From: Pseudomonadota bacterium
Lineage (GTDB): Bacteria; Desulfobacterota; Binatia; UBA9968
Direction: 5' to 3'
Assembly (NCBI GenBank): GCA_021324155.1
Contig: JAJPJQ010000049.1
Span: 1 to 64,000 of the forward strand
Length of the DNA: 64,000 bases
Part shown: one piece after another, positions 6,307-13,596 of the stretch
Layout of the letters: each line of letters begins with the position of its first letter
Position numbering within the stretch: the first letter of the stretch is position 1
Made by a program: the position numbers and the translations under genes
Notes under the pieces: model-generated
The model's database searches: none
What the model was told of the DNA's origin: nothing
What the model saw: only the letters and a program-made list of their open reading frames with translations

Positions 6307-6337
6307 GGTAAACCTTTTTCGGGCCGTCCGCGTCTAA
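6307..6337 (+). promoter_or_regulatory. Candidate ECF-sigma promoter upstream of the sigma gene
   Basis: GGTAAACC (6307-6314) then 17 nt then GTCTAA (6332-6337). The -35 AACC/-10 CGTC pattern is typical of ECF sigma factors. A near copy (GGTAAACC, 16 nt, CGTCTAAG) lies at 8010-8039 before the first Tyr-rich gene. This supports autoregulation and a shared regulon. Assignment to this sigma factor is inference. Confidence 0.5.
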
Positions 6338-6423
6338 GTTATTGTAATTAAGAGCCTTAGAGGCCAAATGGGCGTATGATGACGCAGCAGAGAGCATCTA
6401 GTAGCCATATTTGGAGGCGCAGT

Positions 6424-6498
6424 ATGCCATTGGGCTGGAACGCCGACGGCGAACGTCGTAAACTCTTTTCGGTCCGGCCGGCGCCATCGTCGAATTGA
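6424..6498 (+). CDS. Possible 24-aa leader peptide (uORF) before the ECF sigma gene
   Basis: ATG at 6424 is preceded by GGAGG with 6-nt spacing. It opens a 24-codon frame (MPLGWNADGERRK...) that ends in TGA at 6496-6498. It lies in the roughly 240-nt leader between the candidate ECF promoter and the sigma gene. An inverted repeat (CCAAAT...ATTTGG, about 6364-6414) flanks its ribosome binding site. It could be a regulatory leader peptide or simply a chance frame. I know no homologue. Confidence 0.4.
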   Translation: MPLGWNADGERRKLFSVRPAPSSN

Positions 6499-6575
6499 CA
6501 AAGGGGTGCAACATTAACCGTGCCCTCGAAATAAGCTTAGAGGCTCCGGTCGGCCGACGTGAGCGTACATTGACC

Positions 6576-7145
6576 ATGAGCAGTCGGCCCGATGAGCTCG
6601 GCGATGACGCGCTTGTCGTCGCCGCGCAACAAGGCGAGCGACAGGCGTTCGAAATCCTCGTCGAGCGCTATAAGGAAAAGGCTTATCGCATCGCGTACGA
6701 TTTTACGCGCGACCGCGAAGAAGCCAAGGACCTTTCGCAGGAAGCGTTCTTGCAGGCGTTCAGCCATTTGAAAGGTTTCGACAGGCGATCCAGCTTCTAT
6801 ACGTGGTTTTATCGTATTCTGGTCAATCTGTGTCTCGATTATCGCCGTCGCAAGGCGAAAGTCTCCTGGGAATCGCTCGAAGAACGCGTCGAAAAGGGTG
6901 AAGGGTTTGCGAATCCCGGGCCGTCGCCCGTTGAGGAAACGATGCGCGGCGAAATCTCCGAGCGGATCGGGGCCGCGCTCGCCACACTGCCGCCCAAGCA
7001 GCGCGCCGTTTTTCTTTTGAAGAATCATCAGGGGCTTTCGATCAGCGAGATCGCCGGTGTCATGAAATCCGCCGAAGGAACGATCAAAGTTCATCTTCAT
7101 CGCGCCGTCATCGCCTTGAAGCAGAGATTAGCGGAATTGGCTTAG
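6576..7145 (+). CDS. ECF-family RNA polymerase sigma factor
   Basis: 189 aa with the two-domain ECF layout. Sigma region 2 spans about residues 20-90 (KEKAYRIAYDFTRDREEAKDLSQEAFLQAF). Region 4 spans about 125-185 (LPPKQRAVFLLKNHQGLSISEIAGVMKSAEGTIKVHLHRAV), with a helix-turn-helix for -35 recognition. The ATG at 6576 gives the usual N-terminus; the frame is open back to a TTG at 6495 that overlaps the uORF stop. It is followed 10 nt later by a zinc-finger anti-sigma gene, so the pair probably senses envelope stress or an extracytoplasmic cue. The likely regulon is the downstream exported-protein cluster. Confidence 0.92.
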   Translation: MSSRPDELGDDALVVAAQQGERQAFEILVERYKEKAYRIAYDFTRDREEAKDLSQEAFLQAFSHLKGFDRRSSFYTWFYRILVNLCLDYRRRKAKVSWESLEERVEKGEGFANPGPSPVEETMRGEISERIGAALATLPPKQRAVFLLKNHQGLSISEIAGVMKSAEGTIKVHLHRAVIALKQRLAELA

Positions 7146-7155
7146 GAGAGAGTTT

Positions 7156-7665
7156 ATGAGTCAAAGCAACGCGTGCAAAGATTTTGAGCAAGACCTCGTG
7201 CTTTATCATTACGGCGATTGTGTTGGGGCCGACAAGCAGCGCGTCGAATCGCACATCGAGGGCTGCGACGGCTGTCGTCAGTTCCTGCAAGAGCTCAAGG
7301 CGTTTCTTCCCGCGACGCTCGCCGTCGACGAGCCGCCGGCGTCATTTTGGCAGGACTACAGCCGCGAGATGCGCGTCAAGCTCGCTGCGGCGGATGAAAA
7401 GCCCGGCTGGATACGTTCGCTCGCGGCTCTCTTCCGCCCGTGGCCGGTGCCGGCGCTCGCGGCCGGAGCAATTATTGCGATCAGTCTAACCATGACGATT
7501 AATAAAGCGCCGCAAGCGCCGTCGGATCCGTCGTACACGGACATGGCATCCAACGCCGATTTCTTCAAATCGATGGATCTTCTCGATTCGATGGATTTGC
7601 TCGAATCTGTTGAAACACAAATGCAAGACACTGAGAAAAGTGACGCGACTGCTCAAAATCTATAG
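7156..7665 (+). CDS. Zinc-finger anti-sigma factor (membrane-anchored)
   Basis: 169 aa. The N-terminal ZAS-type motif HIEGCDGC (H-x3-C-x2-C, about residues 32-39) is the sigma-binding fold of RsrA/ChrR-like anti-sigmas. One transmembrane helix (about 95-115, PVPALAAGAIIAISLTMTI) is followed by an acidic periplasmic tail with a repeated motif (SMDLLDSMDLLESV). It probably holds the adjacent ECF sigma at the membrane until a signal releases it. The short tail suggests signal input by proteolysis or a partner protein; that is inference. Confidence 0.88.
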   Translation: MSQSNACKDFEQDLVLYHYGDCVGADKQRVESHIEGCDGCRQFLQELKAFLPATLAVDEPPASFWQDYSREMRVKLAAADEKPGWIRSLAALFRPWPVPALAAGAIIAISLTMTINKAPQAPSDPSYTDMASNADFFKSMDLLDSMDLLESVETQMQDTEKSDATAQNL

Positions 7666-8014
7666 CCTGTTCTTTTTGCTCGCCGTCCCGTCCGTGTCCT
7701 GGGCGCAGTCGCGCGAGCAATGGCAGCGCTTTACACCCGAGGAGAAGGCGCAGGTCGAGCGCAATTATCAGCGTTGGCAAAGCCTGCCGCCGAACGAAAA
7801 GGACCGCCTGAGAAAAGAATACCAATACTGGCAGAACCTGCCGCCTGATCGCCGCCAGCAGTTAAGACAGAATTATCAGCAGTTCCGTAAGCTCCCGCCG
7901 CAAGAGGCCGAGCAGTGGCGGGAAAAGTATCGCCAGCGCGGCTTCTCGCCGGAAGACAAGCGCGCTCTGCGCGACCGGATGAGAGGAGGCGGCAAAGACG
8001 GCCGCTTCAGGTAA
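7640..8014 (+). CDS. DUF3106 exported protein
   Basis: 124 aa from a GTG that overlaps the end of the anti-sigma gene. It starts with a signal peptide (MTRLLKIYSLFFLLAVPSVS, cleavage after WA). The mature part has three or four copies of a W/F-x2-LPP-x2-R/K repeat, typical of DUF3106. It is very hydrophilic and helical, with a basic C-terminus. DUF3106 genes commonly follow ECF sigma/anti-sigma pairs in Gram-negatives, and the function is unknown. A periplasmic scaffold or sensor role within the operon is plausible. The frame also allows a TTG start at 7610, but the signal peptide favours 7640. Confidence 0.8.
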   Translation: MTRLLKIYSLFFLLAVPSVSWAQSREQWQRFTPEEKAQVERNYQRWQSLPPNEKDRLRKEYQYWQNLPPDRRQQLRQNYQQFRKLPPQEAEQWREKYRQRGFSPEDKRALRDRMRGGGKDGRFR

Positions 8015-8039
8015 ACCATTTTTTGCCGAATCCGTCTAA
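8010..8039 (+). promoter_or_regulatory. Candidate ECF-sigma promoter before the Tyr-rich gene cluster
   Basis: GGTAAACC (8010-8017), 16 nt, then GTCTAA (8034-8039), followed by AG. The sequence including the T-run after the -35 box (AACCATTTTTT versus AACCTTTTT) matches the element at 6307-6337. It overlaps the DUF3106 stop codon and lies 35 nt before the next start codon. Confidence 0.5.
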
Positions 8040-8073
8040 GTACACAGATACAAGGAAGAAAGGAGGCATGGCC

Positions 8074-8301
8074 GTGGTCAAAGCATTATTGTTGGGCGTG
8101 GTTATGATGCTCCTGGTGCCGACTGTAAGTCACGCTTATCCGTGGCGCGGACACTATCATCATTATTACCGCCCCTATGTCTATGCACCGTACGTATACT
8201 CGCCGTTCCCGTACTACTACGCACCTTATCCCTATTACTACGGATACCGGCCGTACTATTACGGATACTACAGACCTTATCGGTATTGGTGGGGCTGGTA
8301 A
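8074..8301 (+). CDS. Tyrosine-rich small exported protein, copy 1
   Basis: 75 aa from GTG 8074. A signal peptide (VKALLLGVVMMLLVPTVSHA) is followed by a 54-residue mature chain of which 23 residues are Tyr, in YYYGYRPYYYGYYRPY-type repeats ending WWGW. The start is chosen by alignment with copy 2 (12539), which shares the ribosome binding site and signal sequence; an ATG at 8068 sits too close to AGGAGG. Coding of the signal peptide shares a 27-bp identical block with copy 2, indicating recent duplication. I know no characterised family. Low-complexity Tyr/Pro/Gly proteins can self-associate or be oxidatively cross-linked, but that is only a suggestion here. Confidence 0.75.
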   Translation: MVKALLLGVVMMLLVPTVSHAYPWRGHYHHYYRPYVYAPYVYSPFPYYYAPYPYYYGYRPYYYGYYRPYRYWWGW

Positions 8302-8313
8302 GGAGGAGGAAAG

Positions 8314-8508
8314 ATGAAAAAGTTGCTGCTCGCTGTATTCATGTTCGCTTTACTAGCGCCATTGGCGGGTTGTGTAGTTTATCCATATGGTTATTACGGC
8401 TACGGTTATGGCTACCCATACGCTTACTCATACGGCTACTATGGTTACGGATACCGACCGTATTATTACCCGTACCGTTATGCCTACCCGTACCGTTACG
8501 GCTACTAA
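8314..8508 (+). CDS. Tyrosine-rich small lipoprotein
   Basis: 64 aa preceded by a very strong ribosome binding site (AGGAGGAGG). The N-terminus is a lipoprotein signal peptide with lipobox LAGC (Cys at residue 20). The mature chain is almost only Tyr, Gly, Pro and Arg (YGYYGYGYGYPYAY-like). It would be lipid-anchored, so it could tether the secreted Tyr-rich proteins encoded on either side to a membrane. No recognised family. Confidence 0.75.
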   Translation: MKKLLLAVFMFALLAPLAGCVVYPYGYYGYGYGYPYAYSYGYYGYGYRPYYYPYRYAYPYRYGY

Positions 8509-8536
8509 GTGGATCGACGATGAAAGGAGTCCGACA

Positions 8537-8920
8537 ATGAAAAAGGTTTCTGCGCTGCTATTGGCAGCTATTTTTGCCGCAGTGCTGCTGATCCCGGCCC
8601 AGAGCTTCGCCTATTGGCGGGGTCCGTGCTGCGGCCCGCGCGTGGTCTATCGCGGCCACGGCTACCCTGGAGCCGCGATCGCCGCAGGAGTGCTGGGCGG
8701 CATAGCGACCGGGATCTTTCTCGGGGGTGTTCTGGCGCCGCCGCCGGTTGTTGCCGCGCCGGCCTATCCGCCTCCGCCGCCACCCGGCGACGCGTACAAT
8801 TCCGGCTATGCCGACGGCTACCAGCAGGGGATTGAGCGCGGGCAAGCGGAGCGCTACCGTCAGGGCCGCGACCGTGGCTATCAGGAAGGCTACGACGCTT
8901 CCCGCTCGGGGCGATACTAA
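8537..8920 (+). CDS. Exported glycine-zipper protein with Tyr/Arg-rich tail
   Basis: 127 aa with signal peptide (MKKVSALLLAAIFAAVLLIP, ending SFA). A Cys-Cys motif (GPCCGPR) is followed by a glycine-zipper hydrophobic segment GAAIAAGVLGGIATGIFLGG (about 46-65), a proline stretch, then a G/Y/Q/R-repeat tail (GYQQGIERGQ, YRQGRDRGYQEGY). The glycine-zipper core is identical for 15 residues to that of the larger protein at 12850, so these are paralogous. ATG chosen for AAAGGAG at 7-nt spacing. Glycine zippers often mediate membrane insertion or oligomerisation. Confidence 0.75.
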   Translation: MKKVSALLLAAIFAAVLLIPAQSFAYWRGPCCGPRVVYRGHGYPGAAIAAGVLGGIATGIFLGGVLAPPPVVAAPAYPPPPPPGDAYNSGYADGYQQGIERGQAERYRQGRDRGYQEGYDASRSGRY

Positions 8921-8953
8921 CTTCATTCGCAAGGGTTTTCTGGGGAGGCTAAA

Positions 8954-9292
8954 GTGAAGACGGCTCTACTCGCAATCGGTACGGCAGCTCTACTCTTCGT
9001 TTTTTCTCCTCCCGCGCGCGCGCAAGTGTCGTACGGATACGATCCGTACGGCGCTTATGCGCAGCCCGACTATCAGGCCTACGATCCATACTATCAGCTG
9101 CACGTGCTTCACTATCAGCTCTATCTCCAGCCGTACGGCTACTATTATTATGCCGCGCCGCCAATCGTTGTCCCCGGCGCGCCCGTTGTCGTCGCGCCGC
9201 GCGTCGCTGCCCCGGCTGTCGCAACGCCGGGTGTTGTCAGCCGCCCGGCGCCGGCGCTGAGATCCGCAATTCCCGTCGTAAAACGCAGATAA
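8954..9292 (+). CDS. Exported Tyr/Pro/Val-rich protein
   Basis: 112 aa from GTG 8954 with GGAGG upstream. The signal peptide (MKTALLAIGTAALLFVFSPP, ending ARA) is followed by a Tyr/Gln-rich block (YDPYGAYAQPDYQAYDPYYQ) and a Val/Ala/Pro-rich block. Its style matches the Tyr-rich neighbours, but it is not a close copy. No recognised domain; probably a periplasmic or surface protein of the same set. Confidence 0.72.
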   Translation: MKTALLAIGTAALLFVFSPPARAQVSYGYDPYGAYAQPDYQAYDPYYQLHVLHYQLYLQPYGYYYYAAPPIVVPGAPVVVAPRVAAPAVATPGVVSRPAPALRSAIPVVKRR

Positions 9293-9301
9293 GGAGAATT
9301 T

Positions 9302-9775
9302 ATGACGCTTAAGAAAATCGTGCTTACGGCGGGCGCTATCGCTCTTAGCGGATCGCTTGCGCTCTCCGCGGCGATTGCCGATTCCGGTTTCGGCCGCCCC
9401 GGCATAAGGGGAAGAATGGGCGCGCCGCTCTTTAGCCAGCTGCAATTATCGGATACACAGCGCTCTGAAATTCACGATATCTTTACGAACAGCCGCGACA
9501 CGATTCGCCCGCTGATGCAGCAGCTGCGCGAAAAGCAGGCCGCGCTCAGGCAGTCGTCCGAGGGCGCCTTCGACGAAGCCGCCGTAAAGGCGCAGGCGCA
9601 GGATATCGCGTCGCTGCAAGCGCAGTTGATCGTCGCGCGCGCGCACATCCGCAACCAGGTGCTCGGCGTGTTGACGGACGACCAGAAAGCACGATTGAGC
9701 GAGCTGCGCGCCGAGCGCATGCAGCAGTTCCGCGAATGGCGCCGGCAGCACTCCGCGCCTTCGGAGCAGTCGTAA
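9302..9775 (+). CDS. Spy/CpxP-like periplasmic protein (LTXXQ family)
   Basis: 157 aa with signal peptide (about 1-27). Two LTXXQ-type motifs, LSDTQRSEI and LTDDQKARL, frame a helical region, as in Spy, CpxP and the heavy-metal-resistance CnrX-like fold. Spy-like proteins are dimeric ATP-independent chaperones of the periplasm induced by envelope stress. Strong AAGGAG ribosome binding site. Its presence after an ECF sigma pair fits an envelope-stress regulon. Confidence 0.85.
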   Translation: MTLKKIVLTAGAIALSGSLALSAAIADSGFGRPGIRGRMGAPLFSQLQLSDTQRSEIHDIFTNSRDTIRPLMQQLREKQAALRQSSEGAFDEAAVKAQAQDIASLQAQLIVARAHIRNQVLGVLTDDQKARLSELRAERMQQFREWRRQHSAPSEQS

Positions 9776-9808
9776 ATTACGGCGTGAAGCCGTATCGGAC
9801 GGCGGCCA

Positions 9809-11128
9809 ATGGCGCTGACTGAAGATCAGAAGATACGCCATTTTTTAGGCCGCGCGAGCTTCGGTGCCACTGCGGCCGAGATCGAGAAAGTCAAAGCCAA
9901 AGGCATTCCCGCCTATCTCGAGGAGCAGCTCGAGCCCGATCGGCTCCCCGATCCTCTGGTCGAAGAAAAATTAAAAAGCCTCAAGACTTTGAGCCTCAGC
10001 GGCTCGGAGCTGCTGGAGCTCTATCCGCCCCAGCAGCAGGCTGCGGCGAAGGGGATGACGCCGGCGCGGGATCAGTCGCCGCGCTTTGTCATTGCCGAGC
10101 TCCAGCGCGCGAAGATCCTGCGCGCCGTCTACAGCGCGCGTCAACTACAGGAAGTCATGATCGACTTCTGGACCAATCACTTCAACGTTTTCGCCGCCAA
10201 AGGCGTCGACCGCTGGCTCGTCACCGAGTACGAGCGCGAAACCATCCGTCCGCGCGCGCTCGGCCGTTTTCGCGATCTGCTGCTGGCCACCGCGCAGAGC
10301 CCGGCGATGTTGTTTTATCTCGACAACTGGCTGAGCTCGAGTCCCGACGCGGCGCTTAGCCGCGCGCGCACCGGCAACGGCGCTATCCGCAAGGGGGGCA
10401 TCAACGAAAACTACGCCCGCGAGCTCATGGAGCTGCACACGCTCGGCGTCGACGGCGGCTATACGCAGAAGGATGTCGGCGAGGTCGCGCGCTGCTTCAC
10501 CGGCTGGACTATTCGCCAGCCGCGCGGCAGGCCGGAATTTCTTTTCGACTCGCGCATGCACGACCGCGGAGCCAAGACCGTGCTCGGAACGACGATCGCC
10601 GCCGGCGGGGGCGTCGAGGACGGCATTAAGGTCGTCGAGCTTCTCGCCAGCCACCCGTCGACCGCCCGCTTCATCTCCACCAAGCTCGTTCGCCGCTTCG
10701 TCCGCGACGATCCCCCGGCCGCCCTCGTGGCGCGGGCGGCGGATGTGTTCCGCGACAGCGGCGGCGACATGAAGGCGGTGCTGCGCGCGATTTTCTCGGC
10801 GCCGGAATTTTTCTCGCCGGAAGCCGTCGGCGCGAAAATTAAAAAACCGATCGAGCTCATCGCCAGCGCGCTGCGCGCCGCGGGGGGCGAGACCGACGCC
10901 GCGCAGCCGATTCTGCGCCATCTGGTCGCGATGGGCGAGCCGCTGTTTCTCTCGGTGCCGCCGACCGGCTTCCCCGATGTCGCCGCGACGTGGACCAGCC
11001 CCGATATGCTGCTCGCGCGCATCAATTTCGCCATCGACCTCACGGCCAACCGGATTCGCGGCACGCGAATCAAAGCCGGCGCAGCGACGGCTCTGGCGCT
11101 CGCCGCGCCGGAATTTCAGGTGAGGTGA
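9809..11128 (+). CDS. DUF1800 domain protein
   Basis: 439 aa. The N-terminal motif LGRASFGAT and internal NHFNVF...RWLVTEYERETIRPRALGRFRDLLLATAQSPAMLFYLDN are family hallmarks, as is ENYARELMELHTLGVDGGYTQKDV. No obvious signal peptide is visible. DUF1800 genes are nearly always followed by DUF1501, as here (1-nt gap). The biochemical role is unknown. Embedding inside a cluster of small exported proteins suggests an envelope or surface-assembly role. Confidence 0.9.
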   Translation: MALTEDQKIRHFLGRASFGATAAEIEKVKAKGIPAYLEEQLEPDRLPDPLVEEKLKSLKTLSLSGSELLELYPPQQQAAAKGMTPARDQSPRFVIAELQRAKILRAVYSARQLQEVMIDFWTNHFNVFAAKGVDRWLVTEYERETIRPRALGRFRDLLLATAQSPAMLFYLDNWLSSSPDAALSRARTGNGAIRKGGINENYARELMELHTLGVDGGYTQKDVGEVARCFTGWTIRQPRGRPEFLFDSRMHDRGAKTVLGTTIAAGGGVEDGIKVVELLASHPSTARFISTKLVRRFVRDDPPAALVARAADVFRDSGGDMKAVLRAIFSAPEFFSPEAVGAKIKKPIELIASALRAAGGETDAAQPILRHLVAMGEPLFLSVPPTGFPDVAATWTSPDMLLARINFAIDLTANRIRGTRIKAGAATALALAAPEFQVR

Positions 11129-11129
11129 C

Positions 11130-12350
11130 ATGGAACTCACGCGGCGGATGTTTTTAAAGACCTCGGGAATCGGGTTGTTGGCGCTCGGGCTGCCGCCCTC
11201 GTTCCTCGTGCGCGCCGCCGCAGCTGAAGCGGAAAGGAAGAACAAGGTCCTCGTGGTCGTCTTTCAGCGCGGCGGCATGGACGGTCTAAACGCCGTGATC
11301 CCATTCAAAGACCGCGCGTATTATGCTTTGCGGCCGACGATAGCCCTCGCGGAGCCGGGCTCCGGCAGCGATCGCGCCATCGATCTGGACGGCTTTTACG
11401 CATTGCATCCGGCGCTCGCGCCGCTCAAGCCCCTGTTCGCTGCCGGCCGGCTCGCCGTCGTCCATGCGGCCGGCTCGCCGGACAACAGCCGCTCTCATTT
11501 CGATGCGCAGGATTATATGGAGACCGGAACGCCGGGCGTGAAAAGCATTCGCGACGGCTGGCTCAACCGCCTGCTGCAATACGGCGCAGCCGGAGGGCCG
11601 CTGCGCGCGGCCGCGGTCACCTTTAGGATGCCGCGCATTCTCGCCGGCGACGCGCCGGCTCTGACGCTGACTTCGGTGGAGGAATTTCGCCTGCGCGATC
11701 CGCTGCTCGCGCCGGCGCTGGAACAGCGCTATGCGAATGTGAGCGATCCGCTGCTGCGCAAGAGCGCCGCGGGGCTATTCGACGCGATGCGGACGCTGCA
11801 AGCGACGGGCGCATTATCCGCGCCGCCGTCGAAAGAGGCATACCCGAGCGGCCGCTTCGGCGCGAGCCTGAAACAGATCGCGGCGCTGGTTAAATCGCAG
11901 GTCGGGCTCGAGATCGCCTTCACCGAAGTCGACGGATGGGATACGCACGTCGGCGAGGGCGGCGCGTCCGGCCAGATGGCGAATCGATTGAAAGAGTTTG
12001 GCGAGGGGCTGGCGACGTTTGCGCGCGACCTCGGCGAGCATATCGAAGACGTCGTCGTTGTGACGCTGTCGGAATTCGGCCGCACGGCGCGTGAAAACGG
12101 AAACCGCGGCACCGATCACGGCCACGGCAACGTGATGTTCGTCATGGGTGGAAAAGTCAAAGGCGGAAAAGTTTACGGCCGCTGGCCGGGACTCGACCCC
12201 GACGCCCTGTACGAAGGCCGCGACCTCGCTCTCACGACGGATTTTCGCGCCGTGTGCGGCGAGGTCCTTGCGCGTCATTTGGGCAGAACAGAACTCGACA
12301 AAATTTTCCCCGCATACCGGGCGCCGGCGCCGCTGGGCATCGTCACGTGA
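11130..12350 (+). CDS. DUF1501 protein (Tat-exported, sulfatase/phosphatase-like fold)
   Basis: 406 aa. A twin-arginine signal (TRRMFLKTSGIGLLALGLP) is followed by the DUF1501 core. RGGMDGLNAVIPF is near the N-terminus, SHFDAQDYMETG follows, and DGWDTHVGEGG, VVVVTLSEFGRTARENGNRGTDHGHGN and FVMGGKVKGGKVYGRWPGL are further on. The Asp/His-rich motifs suggest a metal-dependent alkaline-phosphatase-like fold, so a folded cofactor would explain Tat export. It forms a unit with the upstream DUF1800 gene. Confidence 0.9.
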   Translation: MELTRRMFLKTSGIGLLALGLPPSFLVRAAAAEAERKNKVLVVVFQRGGMDGLNAVIPFKDRAYYALRPTIALAEPGSGSDRAIDLDGFYALHPALAPLKPLFAAGRLAVVHAAGSPDNSRSHFDAQDYMETGTPGVKSIRDGWLNRLLQYGAAGGPLRAAAVTFRMPRILAGDAPALTLTSVEEFRLRDPLLAPALEQRYANVSDPLLRKSAAGLFDAMRTLQATGALSAPPSKEAYPSGRFGASLKQIAALVKSQVGLEIAFTEVDGWDTHVGEGGASGQMANRLKEFGEGLATFARDLGEHIEDVVVVTLSEFGRTARENGNRGTDHGHGNVMFVMGGKVKGGKVYGRWPGLDPDALYEGRDLALTTDFRAVCGEVLARHLGRTELDKIFPAYRAPAPLGIVT

Positions 12351-12538
12351 TTTGCTCAGCCATGAACGTTTTCGGGAACAGAACCTTTCCTGTACGCACA
12401 GGCATTTTACCTACCGGCAACCTTGACCTGCTCAAGCGAAGGTCTAAACTTTTAAATATAACCGCTTCGCAATGTGGACTTGTGGAGGGTAACAGAGGAA
12501 TAAAGAACATTCGACATCAGCCGGAAAGGAGACATGCC
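12351..12538. other. Intergenic region before Tyr-rich copy 2
   Basis: This contains a short hairpin (CCTGT-ACGC-ACAGG, about 12389-12402) followed by CATTTT, which could be a weak terminator for the DUF1800-DUF1501 unit. A GTCTAA at 12442-12447 resembles the ECF -10 box, but the nearest AACC box is 19 nt away, so a promoter here is doubtful. The last 25 nt are conserved with the region before copy 1. Confidence 0.35.
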
Positions 12539-12787
12539 ATGAAAAAGGCGTTTTTGTTGGGCGTGGTTATGATGCTCCTGATTCCGTCGGCCGGCTATGC
12601 GTGGCATAAACACTACTACGCGCCGTACTTCTATCCCTACGCATACGCTCCGTATCCTTATTTCGCTTACGCTCCGTATCCGTACTATCGACCATATCCG
12701 TATTACGGCTATGGACATTATTATCGGCCGTACCCATATTTCTACGGATATTACCCATCGTATCGTTATGGACCGTGGTACTGGTAA
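12539..12787 (+). CDS. Tyrosine-rich small exported protein, copy 2
   Basis: 82 aa. The signal peptide MKKAFLLGVVMMLLIPSAGY is nearly identical to copy 1. The mature chain is built of YAPYPYF/YRPYPYY units and ends WYW. Both DNA and protein show descent from the same ancestor as the gene at 8074, with the repeat region diverged more than the signal peptide. It has the same AAAGGAG ribosome binding site. A structural exported role is likely; no known domain. Confidence 0.78.
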   Translation: MKKAFLLGVVMMLLIPSAGYAWHKHYYAPYFYPYAYAPYPYFAYAPYPYYRPYPYYGYGHYYRPYPYFYGYYPSYRYGPWYW

Positions 12788-12849
12788 AGGCAGATCATTC
12801 TATTATAGTGGCGAATATTGTTGAGAGATTTTTGAAGGAGAGTCAGAAA

Positions 12850-13596
12850 ATGAAAAAGCTAGTTTCAACGCTGGGATTAATCGCCGCGCTGGCGTCGGCG
12901 TTACTGTTCCCGGCTCAGAGCTTCGCCGGCGGTCGCGGCGGCTTCGCTTCAGCGGGTCGCGGCGGCGCTGCCGCTGGGCGCGGCGGTTTTGCCTCTGCGG
13001 GTCGTGGCGGGTTCGCTTCCGCACCAGCTCGGGGGAACTTCGGTCCGAGTCGGGGAGGTTTTGCTTCGTCCGCGGGCCGTGCGTTCGCTGGAACTCCCCG
13101 TGGCTTCGCTCCGACCGCGGGGCGTGGGGGGTGGAATGGAGGCTGGCGTGGCGGCTCCTGGAACGGGGGCTGGCATGGCGGTTCATGGGGTGGCCGTAAC
13201 TTCTACGGTTCCCGTTTTGGTTTTTATCCTCGGTACGGCTACGGTCGTTTCCACTACGGCCACTGCTGCGGATACTATTACAACGGCGCCGCGATTGCCG
13301 CCGGGGTCTTGGGCGGCATCGCGACAGGCTTCTTGATCTCCCCTTTCTTGTATGGGCCGCCGGTCTATGCCGACCCGGGTTATTATCCGCCTCCGCCTCC
13401 ACCGGACTACGGGTATCCGCCGCCTCCCTATGATCCCGGCTATCCGCCGCCGTACGACCCTGGATACGACCAGGGACCGCCGCCGCCCGATCAGGAGCAA
13501 TACCAGAGCAATCCACCGCCTGCGCCGCAAAATCAGCAGTACCAGCAAAGCCCGTACTCGTCTGAGGGCTACAGGCCTGCTCAATATCGCTACTAA
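12850..13596 (+). CDS. Exported Gly-rich/glycine-zipper/Pro-Tyr-rich protein
   Basis: 248 aa with signal peptide (about 1-26, ending SFA). Segments in order: RGGFASAGRGG-type repeats (27-100), a WNGGWRGGSW Trp/Gly block, HCCGYY, the glycine zipper GAAIAAGVLGGIATG shared with the protein at 8537, then a Pro/Tyr tail (YPPPPPPDYGYPPPPYDPGY) and a Gln-rich end. It looks like an enlarged paralogue of that protein. Low-complexity Gly/Tyr/Trp composition is typical of structural or phase-separating surface proteins. Function unknown. Confidence 0.75.
   Translation: MKKLVSTLGLIAALASALLFPAQSFAGGRGGFASAGRGGAAAGRGGFASAGRGGFASAPARGNFGPSRGGFASSAGRAFAGTPRGFAPTAGRGGWNGGWRGGSWNGGWHGGSWGGRNFYGSRFGFYPRYGYGRFHYGHCCGYYYNGAAIAAGVLGGIATGFLISPFLYGPPVYADPGYYPPPPPPDYGYPPPPYDPGYPPPYDPGYDQGPPPPDQEQYQSNPPPAPQNQQYQQSPYSSEGYRPAQYRY

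Follow-up and report, generated by a model that had tools for sequence, protein, structure and literature searches.

A promoter-linked cassette of tyrosine-rich exported proteins in a probable ECF-type envelope-stress regulon of Binatia

The 64,000-nucleotide stretch analyzed here (the window; positions 1 to 64,000 of contig JAJPJQ010000049.1, assembly GCA_021324155.1, from a Binatia bacterium of lineage UBA9968) harbors a locus in which genes for an extracytoplasmic function (ECF) sigma factor, a zinc-finger anti-sigma factor and a DUF3106 protein are followed by a cassette of small exported proteins extremely rich in tyrosine (Tyr). The gene content and promoters of the locus make it probable that it constitutes an envelope-stress regulon of the ECF type, in which the regulatory system is of a familiar kind and the effectors are new. 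A reading of the sequence only, made before this analysis, had proposed that one ECF sigma factor governs the whole Tyr-rich battery; in agreement with that proposal, a conserved promoter lies upstream of the cassette in eleven loci, one of which is located away from its sigma gene.

Results

Two closely matching ECF-type promoters were found in the window, both on the forward strand. The first, GTAAACC-N16-CGTCTAA at 6308..6337 (score 28.8), precedes the sigma operon and predicts autoregulation; the start coordinate of the sequence-only reading, 6307, is one base ahead of it. The second, GTAAACC-N15-CGTCTAA at 8011..8039 (score 28.3), lies 28 nt before Y1, the first gene of the Tyr cassette. 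Using a scoring matrix built without the own genome, neither score was reached by any of 3000 random 250-bp windows. An AAC -35 and CGT -10 promoter ahead of the own operon is among the hallmarks of ECF sigma factors (PMC8103513), and such a promoter is present upstream of this sigma gene.

Across the family, the overall consensus is a bipartite, 14-base element, GT(A/T)AAC(C/A)-N15/16-CGTCTAA. A search for GTAAACC-N15..18-CGTCTAA returned 29 sites in 20 of 25 family genomes compared with 2 for the reversed control, and the spacer was 15 in all 26 family sites outside the own genome although 15-18 was permitted. The -35 variant GTTAAC(A/C) gave 12 sites among 58 genomes, all of them within the family (control, 0). 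Accepting either -35 variant, a site with at most three mismatches is found upstream of the first gene in 11/11 cassettes with Tyr-rich or zipper genes (ten relatives and the window): exact in three (the window, L036 and L038), with one mismatch in five (L041, L053, L054, L156 and L065), with two in L052 and L056, and with three in L063. A site with two mismatches or fewer occurred in 3 of 2000 random 200-bp windows. We infer that the sigma factor recognizes these promoters. Not every match to the motif is a promoter, since two sites (in G007 and G019) fall within a coding region. The shared promoter-like elements noted earlier were confirmed for the sigma gene (6308) and for Y1 (8011) but are unconvincing for Y5: the candidate at 12417 has the wrong spacer, and 2.6% of random windows score as well.

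The cluster is conserved in relatives, and the outcome that the sequence-only reading had named as refuting it, absence from every relative, did not occur. Orthologues of the sigma factor are 54-81% identical in most family members and fall into two main groups. In group A, wherever the surroundings are visible on the contig, the locus sits either between zapAB and glyS or close to glyS. Its order is ECF, anti-sigma, DUF3106, (Spy), DUF1800, DUF1501, mostly without Tyr genes, indicating that the DUF1800-DUF1501 pair is an old core of the locus and that the Tyr cassette is particular to a lineage. The lipoprotein, the zipper protein and Y4 occur in three genomes, that of the window and those of L036 and L038. 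The complete window order (promoter, Y1, Y2, Y3, Y4, Spy, DUF1800, DUF1501) is retained in L038, where a positional homologue of Y1 begins 24 nt after the same promoter; this gene was read directly from the DNA that separates promoter and lipoprotein, the gene caller having missed it. Homologues of Y2 and Y4 are present in L036 and L038, and further Tyr-rich lipoproteins in L041 and L156; Y3 has 6 homologues with a mean column identity of 59%. Tyr-rich or zipper genes also follow the ECF gene in L041, L052, L053, L054, L056, L063 and L065, with L052 and L063 being weak cases (Tyr 7-8%). L065 belongs to a second family of the order, and its ECF, anti-sigma and DUF3106 genes are followed by the promoter, an H/Y-rich protein and a zipper protein.

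That the unlinked L156 cassette keeps the promoter speaks most strongly for a regulatory link and against simple proximity. This cassette is from Deltaproteobacteria bacterium NC_groundwater_356, and the stretch from contig C224 of genome G019 lies wholly and identically inside it; in G019 (L156/L193 cassette) the sigma gene is on contig C494 and the cassette on C224. A scan of named genomes for the zipper protein gave one locus, its DNA identical to the G019 contig, while phylum-wide the protein was found in 2 of 395 genomes, one being the own genome. On the phylogenetic tree the Tyr cassettes are scattered across both sigma clades (7 changes, with no significant clustering), a pattern that fits either an old cassette lost many times over or one gained repeatedly. 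In one relative, G009, the sigma gene appears on two contig pieces, C13 and C67, with a TGA inside each match, possibly a broken gene or an assembly error.

Every gene named for the locus at 6576-13596 has a plausible start and a ribosome-binding site, and all of them are on the forward strand. The full gene set noted previously is present, including six small exported proteins rich in Tyr, Gly or Pro, Y1 to Y6, one of which is a lipoprotein. Y1 (8068..8301; 77 amino acids, aa) has 23 Tyr among 54 mature residues, exactly as first counted; Y2 (8314..8508; 64 aa, 23 Tyr) is the lipoprotein; Y3 (8537..8920; 127 aa) carries a Gly-zipper segment and a C-terminal YxxGYxxG helix; and Y4 (8954..9292; 112 aa, GTG start) is rich in Tyr and Pro. 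Further downstream are Y5 (12539..12787; 82 aa, 27 Tyr) and the Gly/Tyr/Pro-rich Y6 (12850..13596; 248 aa). By sequence comparison, Y5 and Y6 are diverged duplicates (paralogues) of Y1 and Y3: the DNA of Y1 and Y5 is near-identical across the ribosome-binding site and signal peptide, and Y6 matches the Y3 profile (E 5.3e-10) and shares its zipper. Their earlier inclusion under shared control is not upheld, as these paralogues have no convincing sigma promoter.

Y1, Y2, Y4, Y5 and Y6 are below every Pfam and NCBIfam cut-off; for Y3 these databases give nothing beyond weak matches to Yae1_N and FliH, both under threshold and both over the YxxG helix; structure prediction for Y3 gave three helices at low confidence (predicted local distance difference test 60). 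The Tyr richness is not a chance feature: in 900 kb of the own genome (about 19% of it; 882 called genes), at least 10% Tyr was found only in Y1, Y2, Y4, Y5 and one 60-aa lipoprotein on another contig, the last a biased find because it was fetched for its one-mismatch copy of the sigma promoter. The own genome also encodes, at an unlinked place (L140:2520-3020), a lipoprotein of 166 aa whose N-terminal part includes a Tyr-rich stretch. Since TAT and TAC codons are mixed (10/13, 8/15 and 15/12), the Tyr tracts are not a DNA microsatellite, and that artifact was ruled out. The mature Tyr-rich proteins are basic (isoelectric point about 9), are composed of Y, R, P, G, W and H with very few Met or Cys, and are probably disordered. 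By the enteric +2 rule, the residue after the lipid Cys decides the membrane to which a lipoprotein goes. In Y2 this residue is Val. Asp, which would act as a retention signal, is absent from this position in all the lipoproteins checked, so that they are predicted to reside in the outer membrane.

The sigma factor (6576..7145; 189 aa) contains only the sigma2 and sigma4 domains (Pfam Sigma70_r2, 28-95; Sigma70_r4_2, 129-179) joined by a linker of <50 residues, and its cognate anti-sigma factor is encoded adjacent to it (7156..7665; Pfam zf-HC2). The latter combines a cytoplasmic ZAS domain, one predicted transmembrane helix at about residues 97-115, and a short periplasmic tail with the conserved motif LEFFxxMDxLDxLDxLE; H33, C37 and C40 are invariant in 19/19 sequences. 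The gene for the exported DUF3106 protein (7640..8014; GTG start; Pfam DUF3106 1e-15, 58.5 bits against a curated cut-off of 24.3) overlaps the anti-sigma gene by 26 bp. Structure prediction, at good confidence, shows the protein as short helices joined in a chain; a Spy/CnrX-type fold was considered and rejected, since comparison with the Spy profile by hhalign gave a probability of 1.7 and a fold search of the PDB had no match at E 0.001. Of 27 DUF3106 loci drawn from across the phylum, 19 have an ECF sigma gene within 1.5 kb, and DUF3106 is therefore best read as a likely sensing partner of ECF systems. ECF sigma factor, anti-sigma factor and DUF3106 form a widespread signaling triad, which places DUF3106 on the signaling side and not, as supposed at first, within the Tyr system.

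The triad recurs in L163-L191 of this phylum-wide set, and in some of these loci (L169, L170 and L190) a tiny open reading frame of its own encodes the LEFFxxMD-like tail motif. In many group A loci (L037, L040, L044, L045, L046, L048, L050, L051, L055 and L066) the anti-sigma and DUF3106 genes flank a gene for a further small exported protein (DREMLRMMEFLREMEMIK...), which the window lacks. No DUF3106 match was found on annotated plasmids. Among the papers of the library searched, none mentions DUF3106 and none joins tyrosine-rich proteins with an ECF sigma factor.

In the own genome, sites that are exact or have one mismatch and lie no more than 60 nt from a start precede Y1, a 102-aa exported DR-repeat protein, and the 60-aa Tyr-rich lipoprotein; a site 52 nt before a ketoacyl-synthase-like gene may be chance. 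Sites across the family precede Spy-like proteins, exported DR/RKEIRQD-repeat proteins and the sigma gene itself. Because the predicted targets are small exported proteins with Spy-like members among them, the regulon appears to be of the envelope-stress type, in outline the role suggested by the sequence-only reading. Helical, exported DR/RKEIRQD-repeat proteins are located behind the promoter in L108, L085, L195 and L200 and also, encoded upstream of the ECF gene, in L037, L039, L045, L050 and L051; two that were scanned gave no significant Pfam match.

The Spy/CpxP-like LTXXQ protein of the window (9302..9775; PF07813, 54.7 bits against a cut-off of 24.3, 1.8e-14) matches the CpxP structure 3itf (E 4.3e-10) and also Metal_resist. 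It is followed by the DUF1800 protein (9809..11128; Pfam 4e-130) and the DUF1501 protein (11130..12350; Pfam 1.6e-35), in which a twin-arginine signal, TRRMFLK, was read from the sequence. This pair, initially counted with the Tyr system, is instead the older core of the locus, accompanying the ECF gene in relatives without Tyr genes. A 366-aa open frame antisense to DUF1800 (10145-11245) looks like a GC-rich shadow frame.

Discussion

The locus shares with the RpoE-RseA and Cpx envelope stress responses of Gram-negative bacteria an ECF sigma factor, a membrane anti-sigma factor, an AAC/CGT promoter of its own (here with predicted autoregulation) and Spy/CpxP-like proteins among the targets, which here are predicted. 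It differs from them in its zinc-finger anti-sigma factor with a tiny periplasmic tail, in having DUF3106 where RseB would be, and in its Tyr-rich, Gly-zipper and DR-repeat effectors. With SigAb-AabA-AabB of Acinetobacter it has in common a small direct regulon and a single operon for sigma factor, membrane protein and exported protein, the likeness of AabA/AabB to zf-HC2 and DUF3106 being one of layout; the direct targets of SigAb are itself, relA and a small RNA, whereas the targets predicted here are exported proteins (PMC12153292). Adjacent DUF1501 and DUF1800 genes, the DUF1501 protein having a twin-arginine signal, have been described beside bacterial chitin synthases (PMC5122149); the same adjacency and signal are present here, but the pair follows an ECF gene and has zapAB and glyS as its surroundings.

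In the mechanism we favor, the membrane-anchored zinc-finger anti-sigma factor would hold the sigma factor, and its periplasmic tail together with exported DUF3106 would most likely sense periplasmic trouble. The freed sigma factor would fire its own promoter and the 8011 promoter, leading to production of Y1, Y2, Y3 and Y4 and, by read-through, of the Spy-like chaperone, with the DR-repeat helical protein and the second Tyr-rich lipoprotein as probable unlinked targets. The Tyr-rich proteins would most likely serve as an abundant cationic, aromatic filler, putatively anchored at the outer membrane by the lipoprotein and in a membrane by the zipper protein, that would bind polyanionic or damaged envelope material alongside Spy. 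This filler role, tentatively drawn from composition and much less certain than the regulon itself, is the function we prefer for the cassette, while envelope stress as the setting is indicated by the regulon company of Spy and DUF3106.

The main rival, which we judge unlikely, is a sacrificial role: the Tyr-rich proteins would trap oxidants or metals in the periplasm, doing with Tyr what the ECF-controlled scavenger MrpX/BcrX does with Met. The layout is that of BcrS-AbcS/bcrXQP in Brucella and MrpX in Azospira (PMC8315932), where an ECF/anti-sigma pair switches on a tiny, low-complexity exported protein under a sigma promoter; Tyr, Trp and His are reactive, and the match of the Spy-like protein to Metal_resist is in keeping with this reading. 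BcrX/MrpX, however, are Met-rich repeat peptides co-regulated with a Met sulfoxide reductase, and their promoter differs from the one here (PMC8315932), whereas the proteins described here are Tyr-rich, their mature forms have very few Met or Cys, and the promoter sites examined are followed by neither MsrPQ nor any other repair enzyme of that sort. Oxidation of Tyr, moreover, is not readily reversed.

Less likely still is the original suggestion that the proteins build a coat or matrix at the surface, hardened as oxidation cross-links their Tyr residues. Their extreme Tyr content, the Gly/Pro spacers and the joint encoding of several different Tyr-rich proteins, one of them lipid-anchored, would suit such a structure, but no oxidase or peroxidase was found behind the sites examined, whether in the own genome or in the family (an enzyme under other control being possible), and the Spy-like proteins and the anti-sigma circuit suggest stress relief and not construction. 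That the cassette merely adjoins the ECF gene, is expressed independently and consists of neutral low-complexity drift is very improbable: the fast divergence of the Tyr-rich sequences, the many relatives without a cassette and the lack of a good sigma promoter for Y5-Y6 speak for it, but the promoter stands upstream of eleven cassettes, one of them unlinked, Tyr codons are mixed, and gene order is conserved.

Several observations weigh against the regulon with its cationic aromatic filler as we envisage it. The filler role is derived solely from composition; the promoter of Y5 is unconvincing; L036 and L038 have the exact motif ahead of the cassette and not ahead of the sigma gene; and the source genome is a draft assembly. 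The cassette is also absent beside the ECF gene in many family members, and thus is not essential to the circuit.

Our results raise the possibility, in itself doubtful, of an undescribed form of envelope protection in which an ECF sigma factor deploys a lipid- and membrane-anchored mesh of Tyr-rich cationic mini-proteins that would be fast-evolving in sequence and conserved in composition, order and control. More broadly, low-complexity exported proteins that belong to no curated family gain a regulatory address, the promoter predicting a testable control and tying these Tyr-rich and zipper proteins to a single sigma factor, not only across the family but also in another family of the order. 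The findings likewise suggest that DUF3106 generally acts as third member beside ECF sigma factor and anti-sigma factor, in a signaling triad that occurs in many parts of the phylum.

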